Of a stretch of DNA of 39,632 nt, positions 19,895 to 36,297 are shown one piece after another. This DNA is from Atribacteraceae bacterium (lineage in GTDB: Bacteria; Atribacterota; Atribacteria; Atribacterales; Atribacteraceae): positions 1 through 39,632 of the forward strand of contig DATIKP010000136.1 of NCBI GenBank assembly GCA_035477455.1, given 5' to 3'. Both the position numbers and the translations under genes were made by a program. How positions within the stretch are numbered: position 1 is the stretch's first letter; each line of letters begins with the position of its first letter. The notes under the pieces were generated by a model. That model was given only the letters and a program-made list of their open reading frames with translations. It was not told the origin of the DNA and made no database searches.

Positions 19895-21369
19895 TCCGGA
19901 CGGGGTCTGAGAATGGGAAAGAGGATGACCTCCCTGATGGATGATGAATCAGTGAGGATCATGACCAGACGGTCGATGCCGATTCCCATTCCACCGGTGG
20001 GCGGCATGCCGTATTCCAATGCCTCCAGATAATCGGTATCGACAAGATGCGCTTCGTAATCACCCATTTCGCGTTTATAGAGTTGGCTCTCGAACCGCTT
20101 ACGTTGTTCAATGGGATCATTCAGTTCGCTGTACGCGTTTCCTATTTCCTCCTTACCGATGAACAGTTCAAAACGTTCCGCAACCCGGGGATCATTTTTT
20201 TTGGAGCGGGAAAGCGGAGAAATCTCCACCGGGTACTCGAGGACAAAGGTTGGGTTTACGCAGTGAGGCTGAACAAAATGTTCCAAGAGTTCGTTGATCA
20301 TCTTTCCCCGATCCCAGTTTTTTTCAACGTGCATGCCGGCGCGTTCAGCCTTAAAGAACATCACCTCGGAAGAATCCTCGAAAATGTCGATACCCGACGC
20401 GTCAAGAATGCTCTTCCTTAGGTTGATCCGGGTCCAGGGAGGAGTAAAATCGATGTCCAGGCCCTGGTATTTGATGCGAAGACTCTTCAGGATAGTTTGA
20501 ACAACGAAACAGAGCAACTCCTCACAGAGTTCAAGCATGGTCTCGTAATTACCGAAAGCCTGGTAAAGTTCAAGCATGGTAAACTCCGGATTGTGCCGGA
20601 TGGATAGTCCTTCGTTCCGAAAATTCCGGTTGATCTCGTACACTTTCTCCAATCCCCCGACGATCAGACGCTTCAAAAAGAGTTCGGGAGCAATCCGCAG
20701 AAAGAGATCCAGACCAAGGGCGTTATGAAAGGTCTTAAAAGGACGGGCCAGGGCACCGCCTGGCAGGAGTTGCATCATGGGGGTTTCGACTTCCAGAAAG
20801 CCCCGATCATCAAGAAAATTCCGCATAACCCTTAACGCTCTTGAACGAAGATAAAATATTTTCCGGACTTCGAGATTCATGATCATGTCCAGATACCTTC
20901 GCCGGTAACGGGCCTCGACATCCCTGAGGCCGTGCCATTTTTCCGGAAGAGGCTTCAGGCATTTCCCCAATAGGACAAATGTCCCAGCCACCACGGTTAA
21001 TTCCCCGGTACGGGTTTTGAACACCGACCCCGTCACTCCGATCAGATCACCGACATCGGTCGCCCGGGCAATCTCAAACTCTTCCTCCGCGAGATTGTCT
21101 TTCTTGGCGTAGATCTGGATGCGGGCACTGCGATCCTGTAGGTCAGCGAAAAAAGCCTTCCCGTGACGGCGCAGAGCCATCACCCTTCCGCTGACGCTGA
21201 CTTTTTTTCCCGTGTCGAGATAGACTGTCTCGTTTTCGCGGATATCCTCGATCGCGTGGGTTCGTCGGAACGAAGAATCATAGGGGTCTATACCTCGCTC
21301 GCGGTAAAAAGCCAGTCGTTTTACCTGTTCACTAAGACTGTCCGGAAGGGGGACGTTATCAATGGTCAA
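19891..21369 (-). CDS. lysS: Lysyl-tRNA synthetase, class II
   Basis: 492 residues. N-terminal OB-fold anticodon domain (VSVSGRVMALRRHGKAFFADL), then the class II catalytic core: motif 1 around FLDDRGFLEVETPMMQLLPG, motif 2 VYEINRNFRNEGLSIRHNPE, and motif 3 GMGIGIDRLVMILTD. All family signatures are complete. The start is TTG 21369, overlapping the greA stop by four bases (TTGA). A greA-lysS pair upstream of the ctsR operon is common in Bacillota-like genomes. Confidence 0.97.
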   Translation of the reverse strand: MTIDNVPLPDSLSEQVKRLAFYRERGIDPYDSSFRRTHAIEDIRENETVYLDTGKKVSVSGRVMALRRHGKAFFADLQDRSARIQIYAKKDNLAEEEFEIARATDVGDLIGVTGSVFKTRTGELTVVAGTFVLLGKCLKPLPEKWHGLRDVEARYRRRYLDMIMNLEVRKIFYLRSRALRVMRNFLDDRGFLEVETPMMQLLPGGALARPFKTFHNALGLDLFLRIAPELFLKRLIVGGLEKVYEINRNFRNEGLSIRHNPEFTMLELYQAFGNYETMLELCEELLCFVVQTILKSLRIKYQGLDIDFTPPWTRINLRKSILDASGIDIFEDSSEVMFFKAERAGMHVEKNWDRGKMINELLEHFVQPHCVNPTFVLEYPVEISPLSRSKKNDPRVAERFELFIGKEEIGNAYSELNDPIEQRKRFESQLYKREMGDYEAHLVDTDYLEALEYGMPPTGGMGIGIDRLVMILTDSSSIREVILFPILRPRPD

Positions 21370-21878
21370 CCAACCACTGCCTCATCTTTCTTCCTGATTT
21401 CAACGACCCGGTACCTTACAAGTCCAACCGGAATCTTCAGTTCGACCTCTTCACCCGTGGTTTTCCCTAAGAGCGCCTGAGCCAACGGAGATTCGAAAGA
21501 GATTTTACACTGGGAAGGATTCGCTTCGACGGAATCGACAACGGAATACTCCACCACTTTGCCGGTGGAGAGATTTTCCAAAACCATCCGGACACCCAAA
21601 TGAATCTTTTCCGTATTTCCCCCCCCTTCTTCGTTGACTACTTCTGCCTTGCGGAGCTTTTCCTCGAGAACGAGAATACGGCCTTCAATAAAGGCTTGTT
21701 CATTTTTCGCCTCTTCATACTCCGCGTTTTCACTGATATCCCCAAATTCCAGGGCCTGGTTAATCCGTTCTGCGACCTCCTTGCGTTTCACGGTCTTTAA
21801 AAGCTTCAATTCCTCATCAAGCTTGCGGTATCCTTCACTGGTGAGGATAATGCGGGAATCATTTCTCTTGCGTTCCAT
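21366..21878 (-). CDS. greA: Transcript-cleavage factor GreA
   Basis: 170 residues. The N-terminal coiled coil (EGYRKLDEELKLLK then EVAERINQALEFGDISENAE) holds the acidic DISENAEYEEAK tip that reaches the polymerase active site, and the C-terminal FKBP-like domain follows. It rescues backtracked RNA polymerase. ATG 21878 is selected because GGAGGG lies seven bases upstream and the predicted start point (about 21908) excludes the ATG at 21914. The first gene of a greA-lysS operon. Confidence 0.95.
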   Translation of the reverse strand: MERKRNDSRIILTSEGYRKLDEELKLLKTVKRKEVAERINQALEFGDISENAEYEEAKNEQAFIEGRILVLEEKLRKAEVVNEEGGGNTEKIHLGVRMVLENLSTGKVVEYSVVDSVEANPSQCKISFESPLAQALLGKTTGEEVELKIPVGLVRYRVVEIRKKDEAVVG

Positions 21879-21914
21879 CCACTGTCCCTCCATAACCATT
21901 ATAGCCTTCCACAT

Positions 21915-22066: not shown

Positions 22067-22095
22067 TTGACTTTCTGCCGATTTATATATATCAT
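22067..22095 (+). promoter_or_regulatory. Promoter of the secreted-protein/prepilin cluster
   Basis: TTGACT (22067-22072) and TATCAT (22090-22095) each match the consensus at five of six positions with 17-base spacing. The predicted start near 22102 gives a leader of about 87 bases before the first gene; I recognise no riboswitch in it. Confidence 0.7.
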
Positions 22096-22188: not shown

Positions 22189-22545
22189 ATGTTGGTTTCA
22201 AAACATATCCAAAAGAAAAATTTCTTCACTATAGCTATCCTTCTCAGCACTGTATTCCTGTTCACAACGGTTCTTGCTCTCGGAGCGGAAACCACCGTCA
22301 TCTCAGGTATTCTGGAGGAAGACCTCATCATCAGTGAAAATACCCAGATTTTAGGAATCGTCGATGGGAAAGTCACAGTTCCAGGTCCTCTCACCCTCAT
22401 CCTTGACGGGATTGTCGTAGGTGAACTGATTCTCGAATCGGGTGCTACAGTCTACCTGAACGGCATTGTATGGGGCCGGGTAACGAATAACGGAGGAACT
22501 TTATTCCTCGAGGGAATCATCGAAGAAAAACCAAGCGGAATATAG
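22189..22545 (+). CDS. Secreted bactofilin-like beta-repeat protein
   Basis: 118 residues. A signal peptide (basic start, hydrophobic core FTIAILLSTVFLFTTVLAL, cleavage near LGA/ETT) precedes about 85 residues of short beta-strand repeats spaced by Gly or Asn, for example ILDGIVVGELILESGATVYL and GRVTNNGGTLFLEG. The pattern resembles the right-handed beta-helix of polymer-forming bactofilins, but bactofilins are cytoplasmic and this one looks exported. ATG 22189 has GGGAGG eight bases upstream. It is the first gene after a good promoter and precedes the PilX-like gene by about 40 bases, so it may provide an extracellular or periplasmic scaffold with it. Confidence 0.65.
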   Translation: MLVSKHIQKKNFFTIAILLSTVFLFTTVLALGAETTVISGILEEDLIISENTQILGIVDGKVTVPGPLTLILDGIVVGELILESGATVYLNGIVWGRVTNNGGTLFLEGIIEEKPSGI

Positions 22546-22585
22546 CTATAGTGCATGATGCTCCCTAAGGCGGGTGGGGGAACCC

Positions 22586-23959
22586 ATGTTAAAAAAGAGC
22601 CATATCAGGAAAGGCGAACAGGGGGCTGCCTATATATTCATCATCGTGATGATGGGTGCTCTGGTGGCCTTCCTTGTTCCCGCTTTTTCGACATTCAGTT
22701 TAAGTGATCTGCGATCGGCGGAACGGCAGAAATACCGTACCCAAGCCTACTTTGTCGCTCGGGCTGGAGCGGAGGCGTTGTCTCAATTTATCATCAACAC
22801 TCCTCTCCGGGCTAGCGAGATAATCGATAAGGGGGTTTCTGCTCCAGTCTATTTTGGAGAGGGTCATTTTCAAGTCCAGGCTTTCCGCCAGGAAGAAAAC
22901 GACCGAACCCGAATTATTGTTCACTCGGAAGGTAACGTCAAGGAAGTCATCCAATCTACAAGGGTGGTTTTGGTAGAACAGGAGCAACCTACCTCACTAC
23001 CCGGTCCTCTTCCCGAGTTTGACTTGGCCGTCTTTTCCAACAGTAATTTTAATCTCGGGGGCAGTTCCCAGATAGTGGGCTCAGCAGGCACCAACTCAGT
23101 TGTGGATAATAGTGTCGTCTTTGGATGGTCCACGCAAGTAGAAGGGAATTTTTACGTTGGGCCAGGTGCCTTGTTTGCTAATGTCATATCTAAACCACGG
23201 CATCGGAATATCGGAAATATCATAACTGGATCGCGGGGAAACCTCGCAGCTATTCGTAACTACTCTATGCCTGTATTTCCAGAGTTTCCTGATTTGCCTG
23301 GACGAGTTGACTTCGTTACCGACTGGGTTCCGGGAGAAAACTATAGTATCGATCAGGATGGTTCTTATGAGTTAATCCGGGTTACCGGAAACCGAAGGTT
23401 AAGAGTCGATGTGGGTGATGGAGACCGAAGGTTAAGAGTCAGAAATTTGGATATTTCGCAAGGCCACATAGAACTTATTGGGAAAGGAAAGTTATTCCTC
23501 TATGTCGAAGAGAGTTTCAACCTGGGAGGAGACAGCACGGTCAATCACACCGGGGTGCCAGGTGATGTAATCATGTTTTACCGGGGTTCGGCCAGATTGC
23601 GCCCCGCCGGTAATACCAGGTTTGTTGGTTCGATCTTTGCAGAAAAAGCAAATATCGATATTAGGGGTTCGGCGGGCATCACCGGGCATATTATTACCGG
23701 AGGCTCGGAGGTGACGGTGACTGGTGATGTAACGGCTAATGTCCGGGTACTTTATGCCCCCCAAGCTACTGTTTCCCTGACTGGCAGCGCAATGGTCAGG
23801 GGAGCGATTGTATCGAATATTTTTAACGCTACAGGCGCTGCCAGTGTCATCTACGATCAATCGATTGCAAGCTCGTTCCCGGAATTAGTCGATGAATTGG
23901 GTGAAAAAGAAATATCCTATCACGTAGAGATGTGGATGGCCGGAACATTAAGAGAATGA
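22586..23959 (+). CDS. PilX-like membrane-anchored protein with beta-repeat domain (DUF7305-like)
   Basis: 457 residues. The N-terminus carries one hydrophobic segment (GAAYIFIIVMMGALVAFLVP), then SAERQKYRTQAYFVARAGAE, the PilX/minor-pilin-type opening found in exported pilus-associated proteins. The C-terminal half (about 290-430) repeats short strands ending in Gly, such as FNLGGDSTVNHTGVPGDV and VTGDVTANVRVLYAPQATV, like the DUF7305 polymer-forming type. An 11-residue unit (RRLRVDVGDGD then RRLRV) is duplicated near residue 275. ATG 22586 follows GGTGGGGG. The stop overlaps the next gene as ATGA. Confidence 0.65.
   Translation: MLKKSHIRKGEQGAAYIFIIVMMGALVAFLVPAFSTFSLSDLRSAERQKYRTQAYFVARAGAEALSQFIINTPLRASEIIDKGVSAPVYFGEGHFQVQAFRQEENDRTRIIVHSEGNVKEVIQSTRVVLVEQEQPTSLPGPLPEFDLAVFSNSNFNLGGSSQIVGSAGTNSVVDNSVVFGWSTQVEGNFYVGPGALFANVISKPRHRNIGNIITGSRGNLAAIRNYSMPVFPEFPDLPGRVDFVTDWVPGENYSIDQDGSYELIRVTGNRRLRVDVGDGDRRLRVRNLDISQGHIELIGKGKLFLYVEESFNLGGDSTVNHTGVPGDVIMFYRGSARLRPAGNTRFVGSIFAEKANIDIRGSAGITGHIITGGSEVTVTGDVTANVRVLYAPQATVSLTGSAMVRGAIVSNIFNATGAASVIYDQSIASSFPELVDELGEKEISYHVEMWMAGTLRE
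23391..23440 (+). repeat. 33-base in-frame tandem duplication
   Basis: The 17-mer ACCGAAGGTTAAGAGTC occurs at 23391-23407 and 23424-23440, exactly 33 bases apart, adding one 11-residue unit. It lies within the beta-repeat domain. Confidence 0.75.
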
Positions 23960-24372
23960 ACAAATTTCCTTTATTGACCGATTCAAAACAAGGTAGCGGT
24001 TTCGTCCTCCTGGAGGTCGTTATGGCTCTGGCTTTCCTCGGCTTAGCCATGCTAACGATCTCTTCCCTGTTTATCCGGAATTACCGTACCGTTGCCACGG
24101 CCGGTGCTATGAGTGAAGTCCTTTTTACGGCACGTAAACAGATGGAAATGGAAATCAGTAACCCCCCTACCGATCCTCCGCCAACCATTTTACCTATTAC
24201 CTTTGGTCAAGGTGTGAATGAGGTCAGTATCGAGGTCAAGGGTAACCTCCTCACCGTTCAGGAAAGTACGAATATTTATCATCGCAGAAAAGATACCGGA
24301 GGCGCTGGTAGCACTGAGGGGTTTCCCACGCGGGAAATCAAATTGAAAACCTTTATTTATTCCGGTCCATAG
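23956..24372 (+). CDS. Prepilin-like protein (type IV pilin/pseudopilin N-terminus)
   Basis: 138 residues. The prepilin-peptidase motif is visible: GSG/FVLLEVVMALAFLGLAML, with Glu at mature position 5 followed by an apolar helix. The remaining 100 residues have no conserved cysteines and no recognisable pilin head. It overlaps the preceding stop as ATGA. The context of a PilX-like protein upstream and a second prepilin downstream suggests minor pseudopilins. No assembly ATPase, secretin or prepilin peptidase is in the window, so the machinery must be encoded elsewhere. Confidence 0.75.
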   Translation: MNKFPLLTDSKQGSGFVLLEVVMALAFLGLAMLTISSLFIRNYRTVATAGAMSEVLFTARKQMEMEISNPPTDPPPTILPITFGQGVNEVSIEVKGNLLTVQESTNIYHRRKDTGGAGSTEGFPTREIKLKTFIYSGP

Positions 24373-24380
24373 GAGTAGGT

Positions 24381-24905
24381 ATGAAGATCTTGTCCCGGGG
24401 GAAATCGGCCAGCGATTATGGTTTTACGCTCATCGAATTGTTGCTTGCCCTCACTCTTCTCGTCTTTTTCTTGGGGGGCGCTTTTGCTTTCAACCTGTTC
24501 GGATTGCGCACCTTCGCCGCCGGTGAAATGCAGACTGACGTTCATCAGGTTCTACGCCGAACAGCGGAAAGGATCACCAATGAATTACGCTATGCCACTC
24601 ATATCGAACTACATAGTCAAGTTGCCACCGTACCTGATGGTTATCTCATTATTGATAGCTCTTCGCTGGCTAACCATTCCAACAACTTGAGCTTCTCGTT
24701 TGTATTTCCCCCCGGCGAAAACCAAGTTATGGAATTTACCATCAAAGCCGAAAACATTTCTACCGCAGCAAGAATACAAACCAGAGTTTACGAAATCTCG
24801 TCTTCCGTTTTTCTAAACAACAACCCGGCAGTAGTAAAACACAATTGTAACGGAGCCCTGGGCCCCTGCACCGTCGTTGGCTATTTACTTCCTCCAACAC
24901 TGTAA
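24381..24905 (+). CDS. Prepilin-like protein with C-terminal cysteines
   Basis: 174 residues. The prepilin motif YG/FTLIELLLALTLLVFF, with Glu at mature position 5, is a textbook type III signal. The head domain is about 120 residues and ends with a short Cys pair (NCNGALGPC). TAGGAG lies just before the ATG. It is the last gene of the plus-strand run; a bidirectional hairpin terminator follows at 25012-25033. Confidence 0.78.
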   Translation: MKILSRGKSASDYGFTLIELLLALTLLVFFLGGAFAFNLFGLRTFAAGEMQTDVHQVLRRTAERITNELRYATHIELHSQVATVPDGYLIIDSSSLANHSNNLSFSFVFPPGENQVMEFTIKAENISTAARIQTRVYEISSSVFLNNNPAVVKHNCNGALGPCTVVGYLLPPTL

Positions 24906-25174: not shown

Positions 25175-26194
25175 TCAGGTTGTGTTTCTGAGCACCAAAT
25201 TTGGCTTGCTAATTCTCACTTTGTTTTCATCCGACATTTTGCCGTTTTTTCTCGTATATTCTATATGGTCAAATAGTATGCTGGTAGCCATTTTCCCCAT
25301 GTTTATTTTCTCAAAGCTCACAGTCGTTAGTCCAACGATTTTTGACAATCTCGTGTTATCACAACCAACGACCGCCATCTCTTGCGGTATCTTGATGCCC
25401 AATTCCTGTATCGCCTCGATAACTCCAAAGGCGACAAAATCCGAATAAGCAAAAATAGCCGTAACGTCCTTTGTCATATTTAAAAGGTCCAACGTTGCCT
25501 TTTTTCCTTCCTCAAGCATGCTATTTGTGTAAAAAATAAGAGTGGGATCGACCGGAATGCCACTGCGTTCCAGGGCTTTATTGTAGCCTTCCAGTCGATC
25601 CTCGGTACATGAAGTCCCTGGTGAACCGGCTATATGGGCAATCTTCTTATGCCCTTTTTTCACTAAGTGTGATGTGGCCATATATCCAGCATGATAGTCA
25701 TCAAAAATAACTCTGCTGCCTCCGTAGGTTTTAAGGTATCGGGCTAAAAAAGTGATAGGTATACCGGCGCTTTTGATGATGTCAATATTCAGATCGCTTT
25801 TTTCGACAGGGATGACAATCATACCGGCAATTCTTTGTTCCATCAACAAGAACATGGCTCTTTTTTCTTCTTCATGATTTTCATGGCTGTTGCAAAAGAT
25901 AACGCTGTAGTGGTTCTCCCGGCATGCAACCTCTATTCCCTTGAGTGCTTCAGCGTAAAAAGGGTTTTCGATATCGGAAAATATTACTCCGATAACGTTT
26001 GAATATCGCCTTTTCAGGCTTGAGGCAAGGGAGTTCTTTGAATATGAACAAGTGTTTAAATAGGAAACTATTGCCTTCCGCGCTTTTAGACTGACCTTCC
26101 CTTTATTGTTGATTACTCTCCATACCGTCGTCCGGGAAACACCGGTCATGCTGGCTATTTGTTCCATGGTTAAATGATTAGTCGGTATATTCAT
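25175..26194 (-). CDS. LacI-family transcriptional regulator
   Basis: 339 residues. The N-terminal helix-turn-helix reads LTMEQIASMTGVSRTTVWRV, and the hinge region holds LASSLKRR with the minor-groove Leu. The rest is a periplasmic-binding-protein-type sensor (VIGVIFSDIENPFYAEALKG, then TSHLVKKGHKKIAHIAGSPG). It should bind a sugar or related ligand. It is the last gene of the catabolic cluster and may control the operator at 33236-33253. ATG 26194 has GGAG six bases upstream; 26206 is a weaker alternative. A palindromic TTTCGAAA at 26217-26224 lies just upstream and could be an autoregulatory site. Confidence 0.92.
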   Translation of the reverse strand: MNIPTNHLTMEQIASMTGVSRTTVWRVINNKGKVSLKARKAIVSYLNTCSYSKNSLASSLKRRYSNVIGVIFSDIENPFYAEALKGIEVACRENHYSVIFCNSHENHEEEKRAMFLLMEQRIAGMIVIPVEKSDLNIDIIKSAGIPITFLARYLKTYGGSRVIFDDYHAGYMATSHLVKKGHKKIAHIAGSPGTSCTEDRLEGYNKALERSGIPVDPTLIFYTNSMLEEGKKATLDLLNMTKDVTAIFAYSDFVAFGVIEAIQELGIKIPQEMAVVGCDNTRLSKIVGLTTVSFEKINMGKMATSILFDHIEYTRKNGKMSDENKVRISKPNLVLRNTT

Positions 26195-26258
26195 AGCGAA
26201 CTCCATGCTTGGAATGTTTCGAAAACGATAGCCAAAAAGGTAACTATGCTACGCTACT

Positions 26259-26288
26259 TTTATACCTCAGAATTATAGCCGGAGACAA
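26259..26288 (-). promoter_or_regulatory. Possible promoter of the lacI-type gene
   Basis: TTGTCT (26283-26288) and TATAAA (26259-26264) lie 18 bases apart in the 153-base gap after the dehydrogenase gene. Moderate matches only. Confidence 0.35.
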
Positions 26289-26347
26289 TAGCTTTCCCGG
26301 TATTTTTTACCTATACCGTTTTCCTGTATGGCTGAGTTCGTTCTTTA

Positions 26348-27400
26348 TTAATCGTTTGGAGTAAACACCACCTTGAGCGTTTTGCTGGCGTCAAAGAGTT
26401 GGAAAGCCTCACCGACAGCTTTTTCCTCCAGTGGGTAACGGTGAGACACGATGCCTTCGGCCAGATCGTTGCCTACCTTGTCCACGATAAAACTTGCGAT
26501 ATCTTCCCATTCTGCCAAATTAAAATACCAGGACCCGACGTAGCTCAGTTTCTTCCGAATGAGTTGTTCGCTGGGGTTGATGGCAATCATTCGTTGGCCA
26601 GGTTCACCAATCTGGGAAACAATACCATGTCGGCGAGTTATGTCCAAAAGGTTGTTAATGGCCTTTTCCGACGCAGAGCAATCAACACTCTTATCTACCC
26701 CCCCCGGAAAGGTATTTTTGACAAACTCAAGCGGGTCAGTCGTGTTTGGGTTGAGAGTGTATTGTGCCCCTAACTCTTTCGCCTTAGCCAACCTCTCTTC
26801 AACGGGATCAATCGCCAATACTGTTGCGCCCATTCCCACCGCCGATAAGACACCGCTCAGTCCCATAGGACCTAAGCCAGCGATGGCGACAACGTCGTCT
26901 CCGCAAACATTCATCGCCTTCATTGTTGAGTAGAGATTGCCGATCGCATCGGTAGCCACAGCTCCGGTGACAAAGCTCATTCTTTCAGGCATGAGTAGAC
27001 AAGACCGCTCGGCGATGAGGATGTAGTCTGCGTCACCACCGTGCATGGTAAAACCCAATACTTCCATATCTTTTACACAGAGATTTGGCTCTCCCCCTCT
27101 ACAGTAGCGGCAATAACCACACCCCACGAAAGCGATCATGGCCACCCTGTCACCCTCTTTCAGGTTTTTAACGCAAGGTCCCACTTTGGACACGACCCCA
27201 CACGGTTCGTGTCCAACAATAAATGTCCCCGGCGGATATCCCGGGATCAACGGGTTTCCGTGATAGATGCTCAAATCGCTTGCACACAGCGCTGAGGCTT
27301 TGACCTGAACAAGCACCTCGTCTGCCTTGGGATCGGGAATATCCCATTCCTTGATGTGCGCTTCTTTATTGCCTGGTAGATAAATGCCTGTTATCTTCAT
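26348..27400 (-). CDS. Zinc-dependent medium-chain dehydrogenase (sorbitol/threonine dehydrogenase type)
   Basis: 350 residues. Catalytic-zinc residues lie in ALCASDLSIYHG and GHEPCGVV; the structural-zinc cysteines lie in CGYCRYCRGGEPNLC. The Rossmann fold has GLGPMGLSGVLSAVGMGA. It probably oxidises a sugar alcohol or hydroxyl of a sugar-derived intermediate with NAD(P). It lies 31 bases after the YhfX-like gene. A rare feature is the neighbouring PLP enzyme and isomerase, which suggests oxidation to a keto intermediate within one pathway; the substrate is not known. Confidence 0.92.
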   Translation of the reverse strand: MKITGIYLPGNKEAHIKEWDIPDPKADEVLVQVKASALCASDLSIYHGNPLIPGYPPGTFIVGHEPCGVVSKVGPCVKNLKEGDRVAMIAFVGCGYCRYCRGGEPNLCVKDMEVLGFTMHGGDADYILIAERSCLLMPERMSFVTGAVATDAIGNLYSTMKAMNVCGDDVVAIAGLGPMGLSGVLSAVGMGATVLAIDPVEERLAKAKELGAQYTLNPNTTDPLEFVKNTFPGGVDKSVDCSASEKAINNLLDITRRHGIVSQIGEPGQRMIAINPSEQLIRKKLSYVGSWYFNLAEWEDIASFIVDKVGNDLAEGIVSHRYPLEEKAVGEAFQLFDASKTLKVVFTPND

Positions 27401-27431
27401 GTAAACCCTCCTTTTTTATAGAATGTCAATC

Positions 27432-28646
27432 CTAAGGTAATAAATTACCCATTCGATCATACGCGCCCGATAACCTCGGCACACCGTTATGTATCCCCTC
27501 TATGACCGCGATATTCGCCCGCGAGGCAAAAACCTGGTTTCGAAAACCGTATATCACGGTGTTTCCCACTGCCACTTTATCCCCTTGTCCTAAAACAAGA
27601 GATCCGTAATAATCAATAAAACCGGCTGGTTCAGCAAGAATTTGTTGGTGAAGAATGGTATCCGGATCATCGCCCACGAGAGCATACATATAGTGACGGT
27701 GATACATGGGTGTCCAAAAACCAAGAGGAGCGTCTGCTCCCATGAGACCCCCACCGTAGGCGTATGCTTTACTTCCGAATATATGAGATACCTCACTGAC
27801 ATAGACCCAGGCCGGTAATTCAGGTAAGTCATCAAAGGCATGCCCTGGTGTTGTCCCGGTAAATCCATGGCCGGGTTCCCCATGGGTTGCGCCCATGTCC
27901 GCCAATGTCTGGAATAAAGTCGTGGAAGTATCTCCTGGTGTATTGATCTGCTCAATATTTAGATTGAACTCATTACGCAATCGAGATGCAACCCGTTGCA
28001 GGGTGGATAGATTCGGGGTCGGTTCGTCTTTCCTGGATTGAATATTAAAGCGAAAGCAGGGAAAAGAAGTCAAGCCAACCACATGAACGTTTTTCAGGTT
28101 GGCAAGAGTGCGCGTTGTTTCCGAAATGTCTGATTCCAATATTCCTCCTTCCTGGAAGGGATAGAAAAAATCCCCCTGGCCAACAACCCGAACCAGTATT
28201 TTCTGAGTAACACCCAACCTCCGGGCTTCTTGGTCTATCTCTTGAGCCTTCGCTATACTGAAAACAGTGATGATTTCTGGTTTAACCTCACGGAGGATAT
28301 AACCTATTTCATGCTTAGGCACTTGCACGAGGTGACCGACATGCCCAACCGGAATGTCGTTCCGATGTAAGCATCGCGCATCTTCCATGTCCACTGCAAC
28401 GGCACTTTTAAAACCCGCCTTCATTATTGCTCGACAGACCAAAGGGTTACGACCGAACTGTTTGGTCATGAAATAGTTTTCCAGACCAAGCCGGTCGGCC
28501 TCTTTCTTCATGAGCCGGGCATTATCGGTGAGCGTGTCCAAATCGATGACCGTCGTATTCGCCTTGATCAAACCCAATTGGTGAAATTCAGCCGCGATCT
28601 GAATAAGTTTAGGATTCCGCCGAATATGTAGCGCAAGAAAGTCCAC
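27432..28646 (-). CDS. YhfX-family PLP-dependent enzyme (alanine-racemase-like fold)
   Basis: 404 residues from GTG 28646, which has AGGAGG six bases upstream; a longer frame exists to 28685. The N-terminal PLP-binding barrel resembles alanine racemase and D-threonine aldolase: IDLDTLTDNARLMKKEADR, then MTKQFGRNPLVCRAIMKAGF with the candidate PLP lysine in TKQ, and NTPGDTSTTLFQT for the phosphate. The C-terminal beta domain includes HIFGSKAYAYGGGLMG. The family's reaction is unestablished. Here it is in an ABC uptake and catabolism operon, so a nitrogen-containing or hydroxy-amino substrate is plausible, by inference only. Confidence 0.8.
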   Translation of the reverse strand: MDFLALHIRRNPKLIQIAAEFHQLGLIKANTTVIDLDTLTDNARLMKKEADRLGLENYFMTKQFGRNPLVCRAIMKAGFKSAVAVDMEDARCLHRNDIPVGHVGHLVQVPKHEIGYILREVKPEIITVFSIAKAQEIDQEARRLGVTQKILVRVVGQGDFFYPFQEGGILESDISETTRTLANLKNVHVVGLTSFPCFRFNIQSRKDEPTPNLSTLQRVASRLRNEFNLNIEQINTPGDTSTTLFQTLADMGATHGEPGHGFTGTTPGHAFDDLPELPAWVYVSEVSHIFGSKAYAYGGGLMGADAPLGFWTPMYHRHYMYALVGDDPDTILHQQILAEPAGFIDYYGSLVLGQGDKVAVGNTVIYGFRNQVFASRANIAVIEGIHNGVPRLSGAYDRMGNLLP

Positions 28647-28704
28647 AACCCACCTCCTCACTTCGTAAGCAAATCTACCCCCCACAAGAGGAGATGTGGC
28701 TTCC

Positions 28705-29658
28705 TCAACTCCCCTGTCCTCGTGACTGAAAAGCCCTCACAGACAAGGCCGCAAGCAGAATGAGACCCATAAATATGTCTCTATAGGCCGGTTCCAACCC
28801 CAATAGGGTTACCCCGTTGGTTATGACTACCAGGACAAAGCAAGCCAAGGTAGTCCGGTATACCGAACCGGTGCCTCCGGTCAGCAATGCCCCTCCCAGT
28901 ATCGGTGCCGCTATGGCGGGCATGAAATACCCTTGGCCCATGAAAGGTCTGGCAGAGAGAGCCCGGCCGGCCAAGATCAATCCGGCAAGCCCGGCCAAGA
29001 TACTACACAGACAAAAAAGTATTAATTTAACTCTTTTGGTTGGGATGCCCAGCAGTCGGGCGGCCCGCTCGTTCCCTCCCGTAGCGTAAATCCACCGTCC
29101 AAACTTGGTCATGCTGGCCGTGATCGCCGCAACCGCCACCACCAGGATCATCCAATACGCTGAAGAAGATACCCCTCCCAGCAGGCGGCCATAAAATAGC
29201 TGGGGCAGCAAACTATCCTGGAGTAAGACAGCCCGGTAATTACAGATGATCAAGACCAGTCCCTGCACCCCCGACATCGTAGCGAGAGTGACCAGGAATG
29301 AGGGAATGCCAATTCTGGTTACAAATAACCCGTTGACCAGGCCCACCCCCCAGGTGGCCAGTAAACTAAAAAAAATCAAATAAAAGGGGTTCGCGGGACT
29401 GCTGACCGCGGCAACGGCGGCCGCCAGTTCCAATACGGAAACAAAGGAAATGTCTATTTCACCGGCGACCAGGAGAAAGTGGACCCCCACGGCGATAATG
29501 GTCAGGATGGCCATGGTTTCGACCAGAACCCGGAAATTGGAGGTGGTGAGAAAATGAGGAGTCAAATAATTAAAAAGAATGATTAAACCTATGGTCGCTA
29601 TAAATAAAACCAGGGTATCGATATGAAAAATCGCCTGTTTGATCGAACGCTTGTCCAA
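28705..29658 (-). CDS. ABC sugar transporter permease (RbsC/BPD_transp_2 family)
   Basis: 317 residues with about eight to ten hydrophobic segments. The conserved LLVAGEIDISFVSVLELAAAV loop marks this family, and GNERAARLLGIPTKRVKL is the ATPase-coupling helix. It should form a homodimer in the inner membrane. The start is TTG 29658, 27 bases after the ATPase gene; AGGGGG lies upstream at a rather long spacing. It is followed by the YhfX-like gene. Substrate is unknown; the family moves ribose, xylose, galactose and similar compounds. Confidence 0.9.
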   Translation of the reverse strand: MDKRSIKQAIFHIDTLVLFIATIGLIILFNYLTPHFLTTSNFRVLVETMAILTIIAVGVHFLLVAGEIDISFVSVLELAAAVAAVSSPANPFYLIFFSLLATWGVGLVNGLFVTRIGIPSFLVTLATMSGVQGLVLIICNYRAVLLQDSLLPQLFYGRLLGGVSSSAYWMILVVAVAAITASMTKFGRWIYATGGNERAARLLGIPTKRVKLILFCLCSILAGLAGLILAGRALSARPFMGQGYFMPAIAAPILGGALLTGGTGSVYRTTLACFVLVVITNGVTLLGLEPAYRDIFMGLILLAALSVRAFQSRGQGS

Positions 29659-29685
29659 TGGATGCCTGCCCCCTCTCCCTGCCTC

Positions 29686-30405
29686 CTACATATAGGTAAT
29701 GAGTTCATCCCGATCAATGCCTTGCCCCACTTTGGTTTCAAAAGTAACCTCTCCGTGCTTGATGACGATGATCCGGTCACACAGCCTGAGGGTGTCATCC
29801 AGATCGTGGGTCACGAAGATCATAGGATAGTTATGCTTGGAACGCCTCAAAATTTCAAAAAAGACATCGATCGCCTTTTCCGATAGGGCTGAAGTCGGTT
29901 CGTCCAAAAGAATAAGCTTTGGTTTGAAATGCATCGCTCTGGTTATGGCCACCGCTTGTCGCTGTCCCCCGGAAAAGTTTGAAATCAGTTCTCTCACGTC
30001 AAGGTCAAACCCCAATTCCTTCAGAGATACCCTGCTTTCTTCCCACATTTTCCGATAATCGACAAATCTAAAAAGGCCTCCCCACACCGGCCGGACCGGT
30101 TCCTGGCCCAAGAAGAAGTTTTCGGCCATGGTGAGCTGTTCTACCGAAGTCGATTCCTGGTAAACACAAGCAACTCCGGCTTCGGTAGCCTCACGGGGGC
30201 TTTCAAAGATTACTTCACGACCCTCTAAGTAGATCTTCCCACTGGAAGGCTTCACGGCCCCCCTGATGATTTTTATCAGAGTGGATTTTCCCGCCCCATT
30301 GTCCCCCGCTATACCCAATATTTCCTTTTTTCTCAATTGAAAAGAAATATCATTCAAGGCCCGAACACGGCCATAACTTTTTGCCACATGAGAGCATTCA
30401 AGCAT
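29686..30405 (-). CDS. ABC transporter ATPase (single-domain, FrcA/sugar type)
   Basis: 239 residues from ATG 30405, five bases after AAGGGG; an in-frame GTG at 30474 would add 23 residues. Walker A is GDNGAGKST, signature FSGGQRQAVAI, Walker B LILLDEPTSALS, H-loop VTHD. Only one ATPase domain is present, whereas RbsA-type partners are tandem; single-domain versions pair as a homodimer with BPD_transp_2 permeases. It lies between the binding-protein gene and the permease gene. Confidence 0.92.
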   Translation of the reverse strand: MLECSHVAKSYGRVRALNDISFQLRKKEILGIAGDNGAGKSTLIKIIRGAVKPSSGKIYLEGREVIFESPREATEAGVACVYQESTSVEQLTMAENFFLGQEPVRPVWGGLFRFVDYRKMWEESRVSLKELGFDLDVRELISNFSGGQRQAVAITRAMHFKPKLILLDEPTSALSEKAIDVFFEILRRSKHNYPMIFVTHDLDDTLRLCDRIIVIKHGEVTFETKVGQGIDRDELITYM

Positions 30406-30664
30406 GACTGCCCCTTGAGAAGTCTCTTCCGCCGCAGGTTCATCTACCCTGTGAGTTGCCACGCCGTTCACCACCTCTTATTTGGCAATTCGTTCGAGCA
30501 ACAATTATTTTTCCCCTTCGGAAAAAACAACACAAAAAAACTCTCTGAAGGTTTTCATATTTGCCTCGCTGAGCAGAAAGGTCTCAACTCTCCACCCAAA
30601 AACAACCTTGAGGGGTTTATAGATCAGGATCCGATATTATGACTATTTTACGAATGAGTATTAA

Positions 30665-30692
30665 TGAAGGGGGATGGATCCATCCCCCTTCA
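30665..30692. terminator. 28-base perfect palindrome after the binding-protein gene
   Basis: TGAAGGGGGATGGATC continues to a perfect mirror through 30692, giving a 12-pair or longer stem. It lies 12 bases after the binding-protein stop (minus strand) with no T run. Such stems usually reduce expression of the following permease and ATPase genes or protect the binding-protein mRNA. Confidence 0.6.
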
Positions 30693-30704
30693 CCGTCATT
30701 TACA

Positions 30705-31904
30705 TTATTTGTCTAAAAGATCAAAAACGTCCTGGGGAAGTTCGCCCGAAGCGCCACGCGTCGCTTTTTCGAATCCATCAACGACATTCGCCCGGACTAT
30801 AGGGTAGACATTGCTGACAAAATACCCATTGCGTACCTCATCTGCCCGGCCCAGCAACCATTTTACAGCCGCTCGAATGGAGTTTTCACCCATTTCTATG
30901 CAATCAGCTTCTCCGGCTCCGATAATCGGATGATCTGGATCAGCAATGAACCGGGCACCGGTAATTCCCCCTAGATCTGGTGCAGCGACAATAACCTCGT
31001 CTTGCCTCCCCACCGCAATAACCGCTTCTGCCGCACCAGTTGCCGGACCCATCATCCAGGTTGCCCAGATAGCGTCTATCTCTGGATTCGCCCCTAGCAT
31101 TCCTACCGCCAAATCATAGCTTTGGGCCGGATCAGTGAATCCCGCTTCGGCCACCACTTGAATACCCGGGTATTTTGCAAAGGTTTCCAGGGCCCCCCGT
31201 AGACGCATAACATTTGTCCATTGCTCGAGCGCAAAGTATATAATTCCCACCTGACCCTCATAATTCATCGCGTATGCAAGAATTTCCGCCGCGGCCATCC
31301 CCTGGCCATACCCATCGGCATCTACTAAACCAATGTAATTATCTTCCCCAAACAATCCACTCGGGGTGGTCCAGTTATGTACTTGCGGCACTCCAGCTTC
31401 TCCAAGGGCAACAAAAGAAGGGCCCAAAGTTACAGCTTCCCAAGCCTGGGCGACAACAAAACTTATGGCCTCGGCCTTTCCACTCAAAACAGCGACCTGG
31501 TCCATCTGTTCGGAAATAGAAGCAGAACCCATAAAAGCTATCGGTTCTTTGCCCAACTCGGCCAATACTTTGTCCATTCCGAATTTATTCAATATTTCTG
31601 TTTCGTCGAGACTTGCCGCTATAAAAAAGTACTCGCCAAACTCCAACTGCCTTGCTTCTTCAATCTCTTCCGGGGTCAATTTCAGGACCTCAGCGCCCAT
31701 TACGGTCTCACCGTTAGGACCATGTGGTGTAAAAATAGTGGTGGCCAGCTTTTCCTCCAATTCGGTGATCCATTCCAGAGGTATCTCCCGAAACTTCCCT
31801 TCATGAGATGCTCCCCAGGCGAATGTGACAAAGAAACCCACAGTTAAAACCACAAAAACCAGCGCTATCCCGATCGCTTGGAAAAAAGACTTACTGTTTT
31901 TCAT
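30705..31904 (-). CDS. Periplasmic substrate-binding protein of the sugar ABC transporter
   Basis: 399 residues. Signal peptide with long hydrophobic core (IGIALVFVVLTVGFFVTF) and cleavage near AWGA; no lipobox. The mature protein shows a Peripla_BP_4-like arrangement, with NYIGLVDADGYGQGMAAAEI and GMLGANPEIDAIWATW as typical turns. An N-terminal 80-residue extension (IPLEWITELEEKLATTIFTP) is longer than usual. It precedes ATPase and permease genes. ATG has AAAGGGG upstream. The ligand is unknown, but the operon's isomerase and dehydrogenase suggest a sugar or polyol. Confidence 0.88.
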   Translation of the reverse strand: MKNSKSFFQAIGIALVFVVLTVGFFVTFAWGASHEGKFREIPLEWITELEEKLATTIFTPHGPNGETVMGAEVLKLTPEEIEEARQLEFGEYFFIAASLDETEILNKFGMDKVLAELGKEPIAFMGSASISEQMDQVAVLSGKAEAISFVVAQAWEAVTLGPSFVALGEAGVPQVHNWTTPSGLFGEDNYIGLVDADGYGQGMAAAEILAYAMNYEGQVGIIYFALEQWTNVMRLRGALETFAKYPGIQVVAEAGFTDPAQSYDLAVGMLGANPEIDAIWATWMMGPATGAAEAVIAVGRQDEVIVAAPDLGGITGARFIADPDHPIIGAGEADCIEMGENSIRAAVKWLLGRADEVRNGYFVSNVYPIVRANVVDGFEKATRGASGELPQDVFDLLDK

Positions 31905-33489: not shown

Positions 33490-36297
33490 ATGAAAAACCG
33501 CCTTCTTGCTTATCTCACGGTGATACTACCGGCAGCCGTGTTCTGGGTAGTCGACGCCTTGGTTGGATCGTTGTTTTTCGTCCCTGGCGCCTTGGTCGAA
33601 CGCCTCTTTCTTCAGATTCCGCCTGAAGCCATTTTCACCCGGTTGCTGGGTCTGTCTGGCATCGTTTTGATAAGTTTTTTTCTTACTCGGTCGTTCATGC
33701 ACCAGCGGGATCTCCGGGAGAAATTACGGAAAAACGAAGAGGGAAAAACGACTCTTTTGGACAGCCTGGACGAGAAGGTCATTTATTTGGATAAAGATCA
33801 GCACATTCTGTGGATGAACCGAGCCGCCCGGGAACATGCTTCCGGCCTTCTGCCCGGTGACCGCCTGGGACAATGTCATGAATTTTGGCCTCGTCACCAG
33901 GAACCCTGTCTCCCCTGTCCGGCTCGGCGGGTTTTTGAAAGCGGCCAACCTCAGACAGACGTAGTGACCACACCGGACGGGAAAATTTGGTCGGTGAGTG
34001 GATTTCCTATACTCAAGGAAAAAGGAATCCTGTCCGGTGTCCTGGAAATCTTCACCGAGATCGCCCGGAACAAACAGATGGAAGAGAAACACTTTCTCTC
34101 CGAACACCGGTATCGGACCCTGTTCGAAACCATGCCCCTAGGTGTGGTTTGCCAGGACCCCGACGGCCGGTTTATCGCTACTAACCCAGCCGCAGAAAGC
34201 ATCCTCGGATTGACCCTGGATCAAATGGAAGACCTGAACACCCTAGAGAAATTCTGGAAAGCGGTTCAAGAAAACGGTGCGGAATTCCCCGTTGATGGAC
34301 ACCCATCCACGCAGGCCTTAAGAACCGGCAAGCCGATAAAATACTTCCTCATGGGAGCCAACGGTCATTTGGAAGACCGACGCCGCTGGCTTTTCGCCAT
34401 TGCCGTCTCACAGTCACTGCCAAACGGGGATAAATCCAGCCAGATCTTCACGATCTTTCACGACCTGACCGAAATCCGGGAGAGAGAAGAACAAATCCGG
34501 AAAAGTGAAGAGCGGTTCCGCTCACTGATCCAGAATGCAAATGACTTGATTTTTGCACTTGACGGCAAAGGATTCACTCTGTCGGTCAGTCCCGCCGCGC
34601 AAAGAATCCTGGGGTTTCTCCCCGAAGAATTGACCGGGATTTCCTTTTTTTCTCTGCTCCACCCGGAAGATGCTCCGTTATTCAGGGAAGTGTTTTTCCA
34701 AAAAATCCGGCTACCTCGGGCGATTTCATCCCTGCCGCCTTACCGCTTCCGCCGGAAAGACGGTGCCTGGGTTTTTCTCGAGACCTTGGTGAATAACCTC
34801 CTGACTGAACCCTCTGTCCAGGGAGTCGTGCTCAATTCCCGCGACGTTTCCGACCGGAAGTCCATGGAAGAAGTCTTGCGAAAATCGGAACGGGACAAGG
34901 AAACGATCCTGAGCGGCATGTCGGAACTACTTTCGTTCCAGGATCGCGAATTGACCGTCCAGTGGGTGAACCGGGCGACAAGTGAAACCTTGGGCATTCC
35001 CGAAAAAGATTTGGTCGGAATGAAATGTTACCGGATGTGGCCCGGCCAGGATGATATCTGTCAGGGCTGTCCGATGATCAAAGCCATCGCCTGCGGTGAA
35101 ACCTGTGAAGGAGAAGTGACGACCGCCGACGGGAAAACCTGGTATGTCCGGGGAAATCCAGTGTTTGGTGACGATGGCCGGGTTTCCGGAGTGGTGGAAT
35201 TGCGGCTCGATATCACCGAACGCAAGGAACAAGAGGAAAAGATCCGGTACCTGACCTTCCACGACACCTTGACTGGTCTATATAACCGTCTTTTTTTCGA
35301 AGCGGAGCTTTCCCGTCTCGATACCCCCCGTCAACTGCCCATGACGGTGATCATCGGAGATATCAACGGATTGAAGCTGGTCAATGACGCGTTCGGACAC
35401 GCCGAGGGAGACCGATTGCTTCTGCGGATCTCGGACATCCTCAAACAATCCTGCCGAAGGGAAGACATCCTGGCCCGGTGGGGTGGAGACGAGTTCATCA
35501 TGCTCCTATCCCAGACCAGCACCACCATCGCCCGGAATATCGTCGAACGAATTCGCGAATCCTGCCGGCATTCGGATCATTTTCCCATCCCGGTCAGTAT
35601 CGCACTGGGAACGGCAACGAAAAAAACACCGGAAGAATCTATAAAAAAAATCCTGATGCTGGCTGAAGACCGTATGTACAAAAATAAACGGACAGAAAGT
35701 CGGAAAACCAGAAAACTCATTTTCAAAGCCTTGGAAAAGACCCTCCGGGAACTCACCCGGGAAAGCGAAGCCTTCGTTCAGCCCCTCCTCTCGATCACAC
35801 TCGCTCTCGGCCGGACCCTGCAGCTTTCCCAGAAAGAAATGGAAGCATTGGAGTTGCTGGTCTCCTTTCGGAACCTGGGGAAAATCGCCCTTCCACGGGA
35901 GACCATGGAAAAGACCACCCCCCTGACCGATAACGAACAGGAAAACCTTCGCAACCATCCGGATATTGGCTATCGTATCGCCCAGTCTATGCCCGAACTC
36001 GCTCCCATTGCCGAAGAGATTCTCTCCCACCACGAGTGCTACGACGGAACAGGATACCCGCAAGGACTCAAAGGGGAAGACATTCCCCTGCTTTCCCGTA
36101 TCATCAAAGTATGCGAAACCTATATCAAACTCCGGTTGGGAATATACAAAGAACCACCGGTGAGCCGGGAGGATGCCCTGGCCGCCATCCAGCAGCGATC
36201 GGGCCTTAGCTTTGACCCGTCCATCGTTGACGCTCTTTCCTGGACTCTCGCACAAGGGGATTTTGATCCAGCCGGAGAAAAACGAGAGAGGGAATAA
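33490..36297 (+). CDS. Membrane sensor with four PAS domains, GGDEF and degenerate HD-GYP
   Basis: 935 residues. Two N-terminal membrane segments (about 7-32 and 50-65), PAS domains near 85-190, 195-330, 335-455 and 460-575, GGDEF near 580-740 and HD-GYP near 745-925. PAS1 (CLPCP near 140) and PAS4 (CQGCP near 524) carry a CXXCP motif plus an earlier Cys, suggesting metal or redox binding. The cyclase motif RWGGDEF and its RRED inhibitory site are intact, so diguanylate cyclase activity is likely. HD-GYP keeps [11 protein letters not shown], but HD reads RN (FRNLGK) and the following ADAFDA-type Asp is lost, so phosphodiesterase activity is unlikely. It precedes the rubredoxin fusion by 17 bases. 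Confidence 0.9.

Follow-up and report, generated by a model that had tools for sequence, protein, structure and literature searches.

A predicted bactofilin-fold protein with an export-type N-terminus, encoded in a minor-pilin operon of an Atribacteraceae bacterium, alternates with a beta-propeller in related genomes

Results

Organization of the locus and its minor pilins

The analyzed stretch of DNA (the window; 39,632 bases) is contig C136 (DATIKP010000136.1) of a 2.16-Mb Atribacteraceae genome, from an uncultured, deep-branching bacterium, that comprises 174 contigs and is 96% complete. It contains four genes on the same strand (22189–24905, +), separated by 40, −4 and 8 bases, which encode a small protein with an export-type N-terminus (g1), a PilX-like minor pilin and two prepilins (Table 1). 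All four open reading frames (ORFs) of the original prediction, which had described an exported bactofilin-like protein, a PilX-like protein and two prepilins at this position, were recovered. The g1 ORF is listed from 22105; its start was placed at 22189 on the basis of a Shine-Dalgarno-like AGGGAGG and the alignment of homologues.

Table 1 Features of the pilin operon and its surroundings in the window.
Feature	Position	Strand	Description
g1	22189..22545	+	predicted exported bactofilin-fold beta-solenoid protein, 118 aa
pilX-like	22586..23959	+	PilX/GspK-like minor pilin without Glu5, C-terminal DUF7305 beta-repeat domain, 457 aa
prepilin 3	23956..24372	+	PilV/GspI-like, GFVLLE, 138 aa
prepilin 4	24381..24905	+	PilW/GspJ-like, GFTLIE, N_methyl, 174 aa
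sigma-70-like promoter match TTGACT-17-TATCAT	22067..22095	+	10/12 matches; possible operon promoter
greA	21366..21914	-	divergent neighbour of the pilin operon; then lysS, ctsR, mcsA-like, mcsB, clpC

These four genes make up the minor-pilin (priming/tip) operon of a type IV pilus, because genes for a pilus machine and other pilins are located elsewhere in the genome. On contig C112 are genes for the platform protein T2SSF, a prepilin peptidase and two T2SSE ATPases, classed as PilB- and PilT-type from their size and location, alongside a pilA-like gene and genes for a GspH-type pilin and one more prepilin; C84 encodes a secretin behind PilM/N/O-like genes (named by inspection), which was the one secretin locus found. 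The pilus ATPase and peptidase that the original prediction had proposed to look for elsewhere were thus both found, together with the secretin.

The PilX-like protein matched DUF7305 (PF23981) with 72.1 bits (cut-off 27), in agreement with the beta-repeat previously noted in its C-terminal half, and is the only DUF7305 protein in its genome. Its N-terminus was closest to GspK, with a score below the cut-off (NF037980, 19.4 versus 130 bits), and gave no PF14341 (PilX_N) match at E ≤ 1; among its relatives, the L029 protein scored 20.0 with PF14341 (below the cut-off of 25.5) and a PilX relative scored 16.8 with the NCBIfam tapirin model, against a cut-off of 600. The motif G-AAYIF lacks Glu5, and inspection by eye, in place of a script that misplaced the motif in several rows, revealed the same absence in all 15 PilX-like proteins of the set. 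A 13-member PilX profile searched against PDB had ComZ (6qvi) as its top match, which was weak (E 0.029); the window PilX alone gave only two chance-level matches and the first, 9-member profile gave three matches, with ComZ absent from both. The two following proteins carry the GFVLLE and GFTLIE motifs expected of the prepilins proposed earlier; prepilin 3 showed weak matches to ComGE, PilV and GspI, and prepilin 4 matched N_methyl above the cut-off, with the resemblance to GspJ seen in one of its homologues.

Predicted fold and export of g1

Proteins of the g1 family are built from an 18-residue repeat (G-N-V-T-V-x-x-G-x-T-L-x-L-x-G-I-V), and the homologues from G016, G019, G020 and G024 have an additional rung. 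The g1 N-terminus combines a basic n-region with a hydrophobic segment and cleavage sites of small residues, and a simple heuristic recognized a signal-peptide-like N-terminus in all eight homologues, which suggests that g1 is cleaved and exported. The AlphaFold2 model of g1 (5 sequences) was a beta-solenoid with a mean pLDDT of 82 and with blocks of residues 41–110 at 93–96. Realignment of this model to 112 chains placed the bactofilins first, led by the Thermus thermophilus bactofilin 6ria (Z 10.9, rmsd 1.8 Å, 74/90 residues) and followed by 6rib (Z 10.3) and BacA (2n3d; Z 8.6), then by a protease and a tapirin at 8.2. At the level of sequence, g1 had 0 matches among PDB entries at E ≤ 1. 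The model predicts a bactofilin-type beta-solenoid, and this fold and the signal-like N-terminus fit the earlier description of g1 as an exported bactofilin-like protein. A separate, ordinary-looking bactofilin without a signal peptide (PF04519, 56.7 bits) is encoded on C65 of the same genome (L056 2542–3003).

Conservation of g1 with the pilins

Homologues of g1 (36–44% identity) were present in 8 of 50 genomes of the phylum, in every case in the minor-pilin operon, and a search of 386 genomes, in which up to 11 candidates were scored per genome, returned the same eight at E ≤ 1e-8. A six-sequence g1 set revealed four loci in genome contigs, all from Candidatus Atribacteria, and the viral contigs searched contained 63 pattern matches, none of them a relative. 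All four genes lay on one contig in six of the eight genomes; the remaining two (G003 and G020) were split by contig ends in a manner consistent with this arrangement, with pilX cut by contig ends in G003 and located on a different contig in G020. One genome with the operon, G005, is a single contig of 3.1 Mb. The conservation of the neighbourhood, which had been suggested as a check, thus extends to all eight genomes having g1. The usual gene order was g1-V-W-X, compared with g1-X-V-W in the window and V-W-X-g1 in G003. In G019 the operon sits between secretin genes and a prepilin peptidase, and in G024 it adjoins genes resembling pilC and pilT (by inspection).

Alternation of g1 with a beta-propeller

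DUF7305 was detected in 15 of the 50 genomes (12/50 over the cut-off), all among the 25 genomes of the window's order. Eight of these 15 have g1, six have a secreted YncE-like beta-propeller, none has both and one (G021) has neither. The propeller gene directly follows pilX in 6/6 propeller genomes, its members are 38–55% identical to the first one, and a genome-wide search for the family at E ≤ 1e-15 returned exactly these six of 50 genomes. When 18 loci and the window were scanned locally with both profiles, g1 matches were likewise confined to the g1 loci and propeller matches to the propeller loci. If the two were distributed independently among the 15 genomes, the probability of no overlap would be 7/5005 = 0.0014, a value that ignores phylogeny. 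That relatives carry a beta-propeller in place of g1, and vice versa, was not part of the original prediction.

Within each of two genera, g1 and the propeller replace one another at a single chromosomal site. In genus g5, G016 has g1 where G017 and G023 carry the propeller; two flanking genes of G016 and G017 are 81% and 86% identical, compared with 26–29% for the pilins. Between members of this genus the minor-pilin cassette is inverted at its site (L031 versus L076/L077), which is bounded by an FGGY-kinase-like/HlyC-like pair (by inspection) on one side and a gene for a SAM hydroxide adenosyltransferase on the other. In genus g8, comparison of G020 (g1) with G013 (propeller) revealed flanks of 72–77%, prepilins of 43–48% and PilX of 27% identity, the last over 220 residues only. 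A further 191–194-aa signal-peptide-like protein lies after the g8 operon with either partner (L081 1731–2306 and L035 10499–11083; 73% identical), and its L081 copy had no Pfam family at E ≤ 0.01.

PilX types and their pairing with g1

The PilX and prepilin trees comprised 15 rows each; the cut PilX of G003 was excluded from the PilX tree, and the PilX of G025, which scored under the DUF7305 threshold, from all trees. Six PilX proteins from g1 operons formed one clade (100/99), and those from propeller operons grouped weakly (bootstrap 73–74). The window PilX represents a third type, clustering with the PilX of G021 and with an additional, lone copy from G015 (100/100), and the two PilX fragments of G003 were nearest to this type. 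g1 is not strictly tied to this third type, which is mixed. The lone DUF7305 PilX-like gene of G015 (L029 9784–11169, C74), the closest relative found of the window PilX, lies away from the propeller operon of that genome with no prepilins beside it.

The PilX of G020 fell in the g1 clade, and this placement held on columns filled in ≥85% of rows; its two prepilins grouped with the propeller lineage, including those of its congener. Because the window branches of the prepilin trees were long (2.9–4.1 changes per column) and few forks were supported, these trees served solely to place G020. We take this arrangement to mean that g1 and PilX were exchanged as a pair around the native prepilins of G020, and hence that they are partners.

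Discussion

A possible non-pilin tip protein

Type IV pili are widespread, and in the few groups whose tip protein is known it is mostly PilY1. We consider it probable, with moderate confidence, that the operon studied here builds a pilus tip in which g1 docks on PilX as a non-pilin tip protein, in the slot held by the propeller in sister genomes and by PilY1 in Myxococcus and Pseudomonas; the operon would then be a known minor-pilin tip operon in a new form, whose partner is either an exported bactofilin-fold protein or a beta-propeller. The PilV-, PilW- and PilX-like proteins would form a priming complex that initiates the pilus and then stays at its tip, with the Glu5-less PilX as the outermost pilin and its beta-repeat domain pointing outward. 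g1, exported via its signal peptide and folded as a small bactofilin-type beta-solenoid, would then bind PilX. The likely contact would be end-on stacking of solenoid rungs, as between bactofilins, by which g1 may cap or extend the PilX solenoid, and the likely job of the assembly would be adhesion to a surface or substrate together with priming of assembly. We propose this stacking because PilX contacts PilY1 in M. xanthus, where PilX lacks Glu5 (as does GspK) and stands at the top of the minor-pilin complex (PMC7541494, in excerpt), because ComZ is a GspK-like tip pilin carrying a beta-solenoid (PMC6561018, in excerpt), and because BacM has been argued to polymerize end to end via hydrophobic rung stacking (PMC4372379, in excerpt).

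The FimU-PilV-PilW-PilX-PilY1 operons of M. xanthus and Pseudomonas share with the present operon the PilV-, PilW- and Glu5-less PilX-like pilins and an adjacent non-pilin partner with a signal peptide; a GspH-type pilin is here encoded elsewhere in the genome. In M. xanthus this partner, PilY1, has a modified propeller domain (PMC7541494, in excerpt), whereas g1 is a 118-aa bactofilin-fold solenoid without such a propeller and its relatives' operons encode a YncE-like propeller. PilY1 (PF05567) gave matches in 0/50 genomes of the phylum, but the controls were silent too, which makes the result unusable as absence. The alternative partner in the six sister operons belongs to the YncE/YVTN beta-propellers (PF21783; PDB 1l0q, a surface layer protein), which are not found in the window and whose fold is unrelated to that of g1. 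Saccharibacteria PilX2 likewise combines a tip-type pilin with a seven-bladed propeller and is a proposed adhesin, but its propeller is a domain of PilX rather than a separate exchangeable gene (PMC12206443, in excerpt). Bactofilins (BacA, BacM and that of T. thermophilus; PF04519) resemble g1 in predicted fold and in their short beta-solenoid repeats; g1 differs in its predicted export-type N-terminus, its score under the Pfam cut-off and its location with pilins. Tapirins of Caldicellulosiruptor are beta-helix adhesins that are linked to pili and to which the g1 model also aligned, but they are large proteins. The original prediction had recognized no described system of this composition; within the literature searched this holds for the g1-type partner, but the composition is not wholly new, since minor pilins with a secreted tip protein occur in the PilY1 systems and ComZ is a known minor pilin with a beta-solenoid. 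DUF7305 was named in no paper found, and titles and abstract openings contained none on the pili of Atribacterota and no system for bactofilin export; the main text of PMC7736352 and PMC11227167 uses 'pili' 0 times.

Several results weigh against a tip assembly of g1 and PilX. Foldseek alone gave no match for the g1 model at E ≤ 0.001, with ice-binding proteins first and the T. thermophilus bactofilin at rank 30, and PF04519 remained under its cut-off of 27.9 bits both for g1 (13.5) and for four homologues (15.9, 23.3, 22.4 and one without a match). The predicted model of PilX (mean pLDDT 37.6) was too poor for topology, fold search or complex. Similar beta-repeats in the first two genes had been an argument of the original prediction; both are beta-repeat proteins, but BLASTP revealed no match between them and hhalign gave probabilities of 0.4, 6 and 22 for window-type, propeller-type and g1-type PilX, respectively, none significant, the strongest signal being in a stretch that overlaps columns unique to g1-type PilX proteins. 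Direct sequence homology of the two repeats was accordingly dropped. The 'one good promoter' fared no better as evidence for the operon, since 8 promoter-like sites were observed in 6 kb versus 7.8 ± 3.0 in shuffles, and it was dropped as well. g1 accompanies the third PilX type in two of four cases (the window and G003), being absent with G021 and the lone G015 copy. The G020 operon is spread over two contigs, and grouping its PilX with the propeller type gave an AU p of 0.028 in a test chosen after the tree had been seen. Kinship is uncorrected in the exclusion test, and all 15 DUF7305 genomes belong to one order. The joint pilus-tip assembly proposed originally is thus partly supported, by the retention of g1 with the pilins in 8/8 genomes and the presence of a pilus machine, and not by promoter or repeat similarity.

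Alternative interpretations

A competence function, in which the tip is a DNA receptor resembling ComZ-PilA2 of Thermus, PilX binds DNA and g1 is its accessory, is possible but doubtful. ComZ is a GspK-like minor pilin, with a beta-solenoid inserted between the final two strands of its pilin domain, that is argued to lie at the tip and binds DNA (PMC6561018, in excerpt); it led the matches of the PilX profile, and prepilin 3 weakly resembles ComGE. However, the ComZ match is weak, the described partner of ComZ is the pilin PilA2 and not a bactofilin-like protein, and the excerpted text of PMC6561018 describes no g1-like partner.

The predicted fold of g1, that of the polymerizing bactofilins, could also suit a periplasmic or membrane-anchored scaffold that polymerizes around the pilus machine and positions it rather than being located on the pilus. 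The hydrophobic N-terminus of g1 could remain as an anchor, and transmembrane helices occur in some bactofilins (PMC12448750, in excerpt). We regard this as unlikely: the swap for a secreted propeller in the same operon and the co-occurrence with PilX type point to the tip, and the hydrophobic stretch of the g1 homologues ends in cleavable-looking sites.

A type II secretion-like apparatus is very improbable; in it the pilins would build a pseudopilus that drives g1 or the propeller, as its substrate, out through the secretin. The weak GspK-, GspI- and GspJ-like matches and the comparison of PilY1 to a type II secretion substrate (PMC7541494, in excerpt) are in its favour, but the genome has a pilA-like gene and, next to its assembly ATPase, an ATPase of PilT type, and one secretin locus was found. 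We give almost no credence to g1 being a small secreted passenger of a mobile minor-pilin cassette with no pilus role, as might be suggested by the exchange and inversion of the cassette at its site and by the variable place of g1, which is last in the operon of G003 and otherwise first, because g1 was found nowhere else in 386 genomes, is kept at its level of identity and is never found together with the propeller.

Docking of g1 on PilX at the tip could take an extended form, which we consider improbable, in which g1 polymerizes from the PilX solenoid into a second, extracellular beta-solenoid filament, which the pilus would carry and retract as a bactofilin fibre at its tip. The length of the fibre would then be set by rung number and stacking, and sister species would swap the fibre for a propeller head. 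For the tip protein itself, the alternation amounts to a natural swap experiment, in which one operon holds two unrelated secreted folds in apparently the same slot, exchanged among close relatives. This makes the specificity of tip adhesins testable, suggests that pili change tips through cassette exchange, and points to the bactofilin fold being in use outside the cytoplasm.

Neighbouring genes

Like the window operon, which is divergent to greA, the propeller-type operon of G012 lies near greA-lysS (gene names by inspection). Downstream of the pilin operon, the opposite strand of the window (25175–31904, −) carries genes for a LacI-type regulator, an alcohol dehydrogenase-like and an amino-acid racemase-like protein and a ribose-type ABC transporter (by inspection). 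Further along, a 935-aa protein with several PAS domains, a GGDEF and an HD domain is encoded at 33490–36297 (+), directly followed by a flavin reductase-rubredoxin gene.

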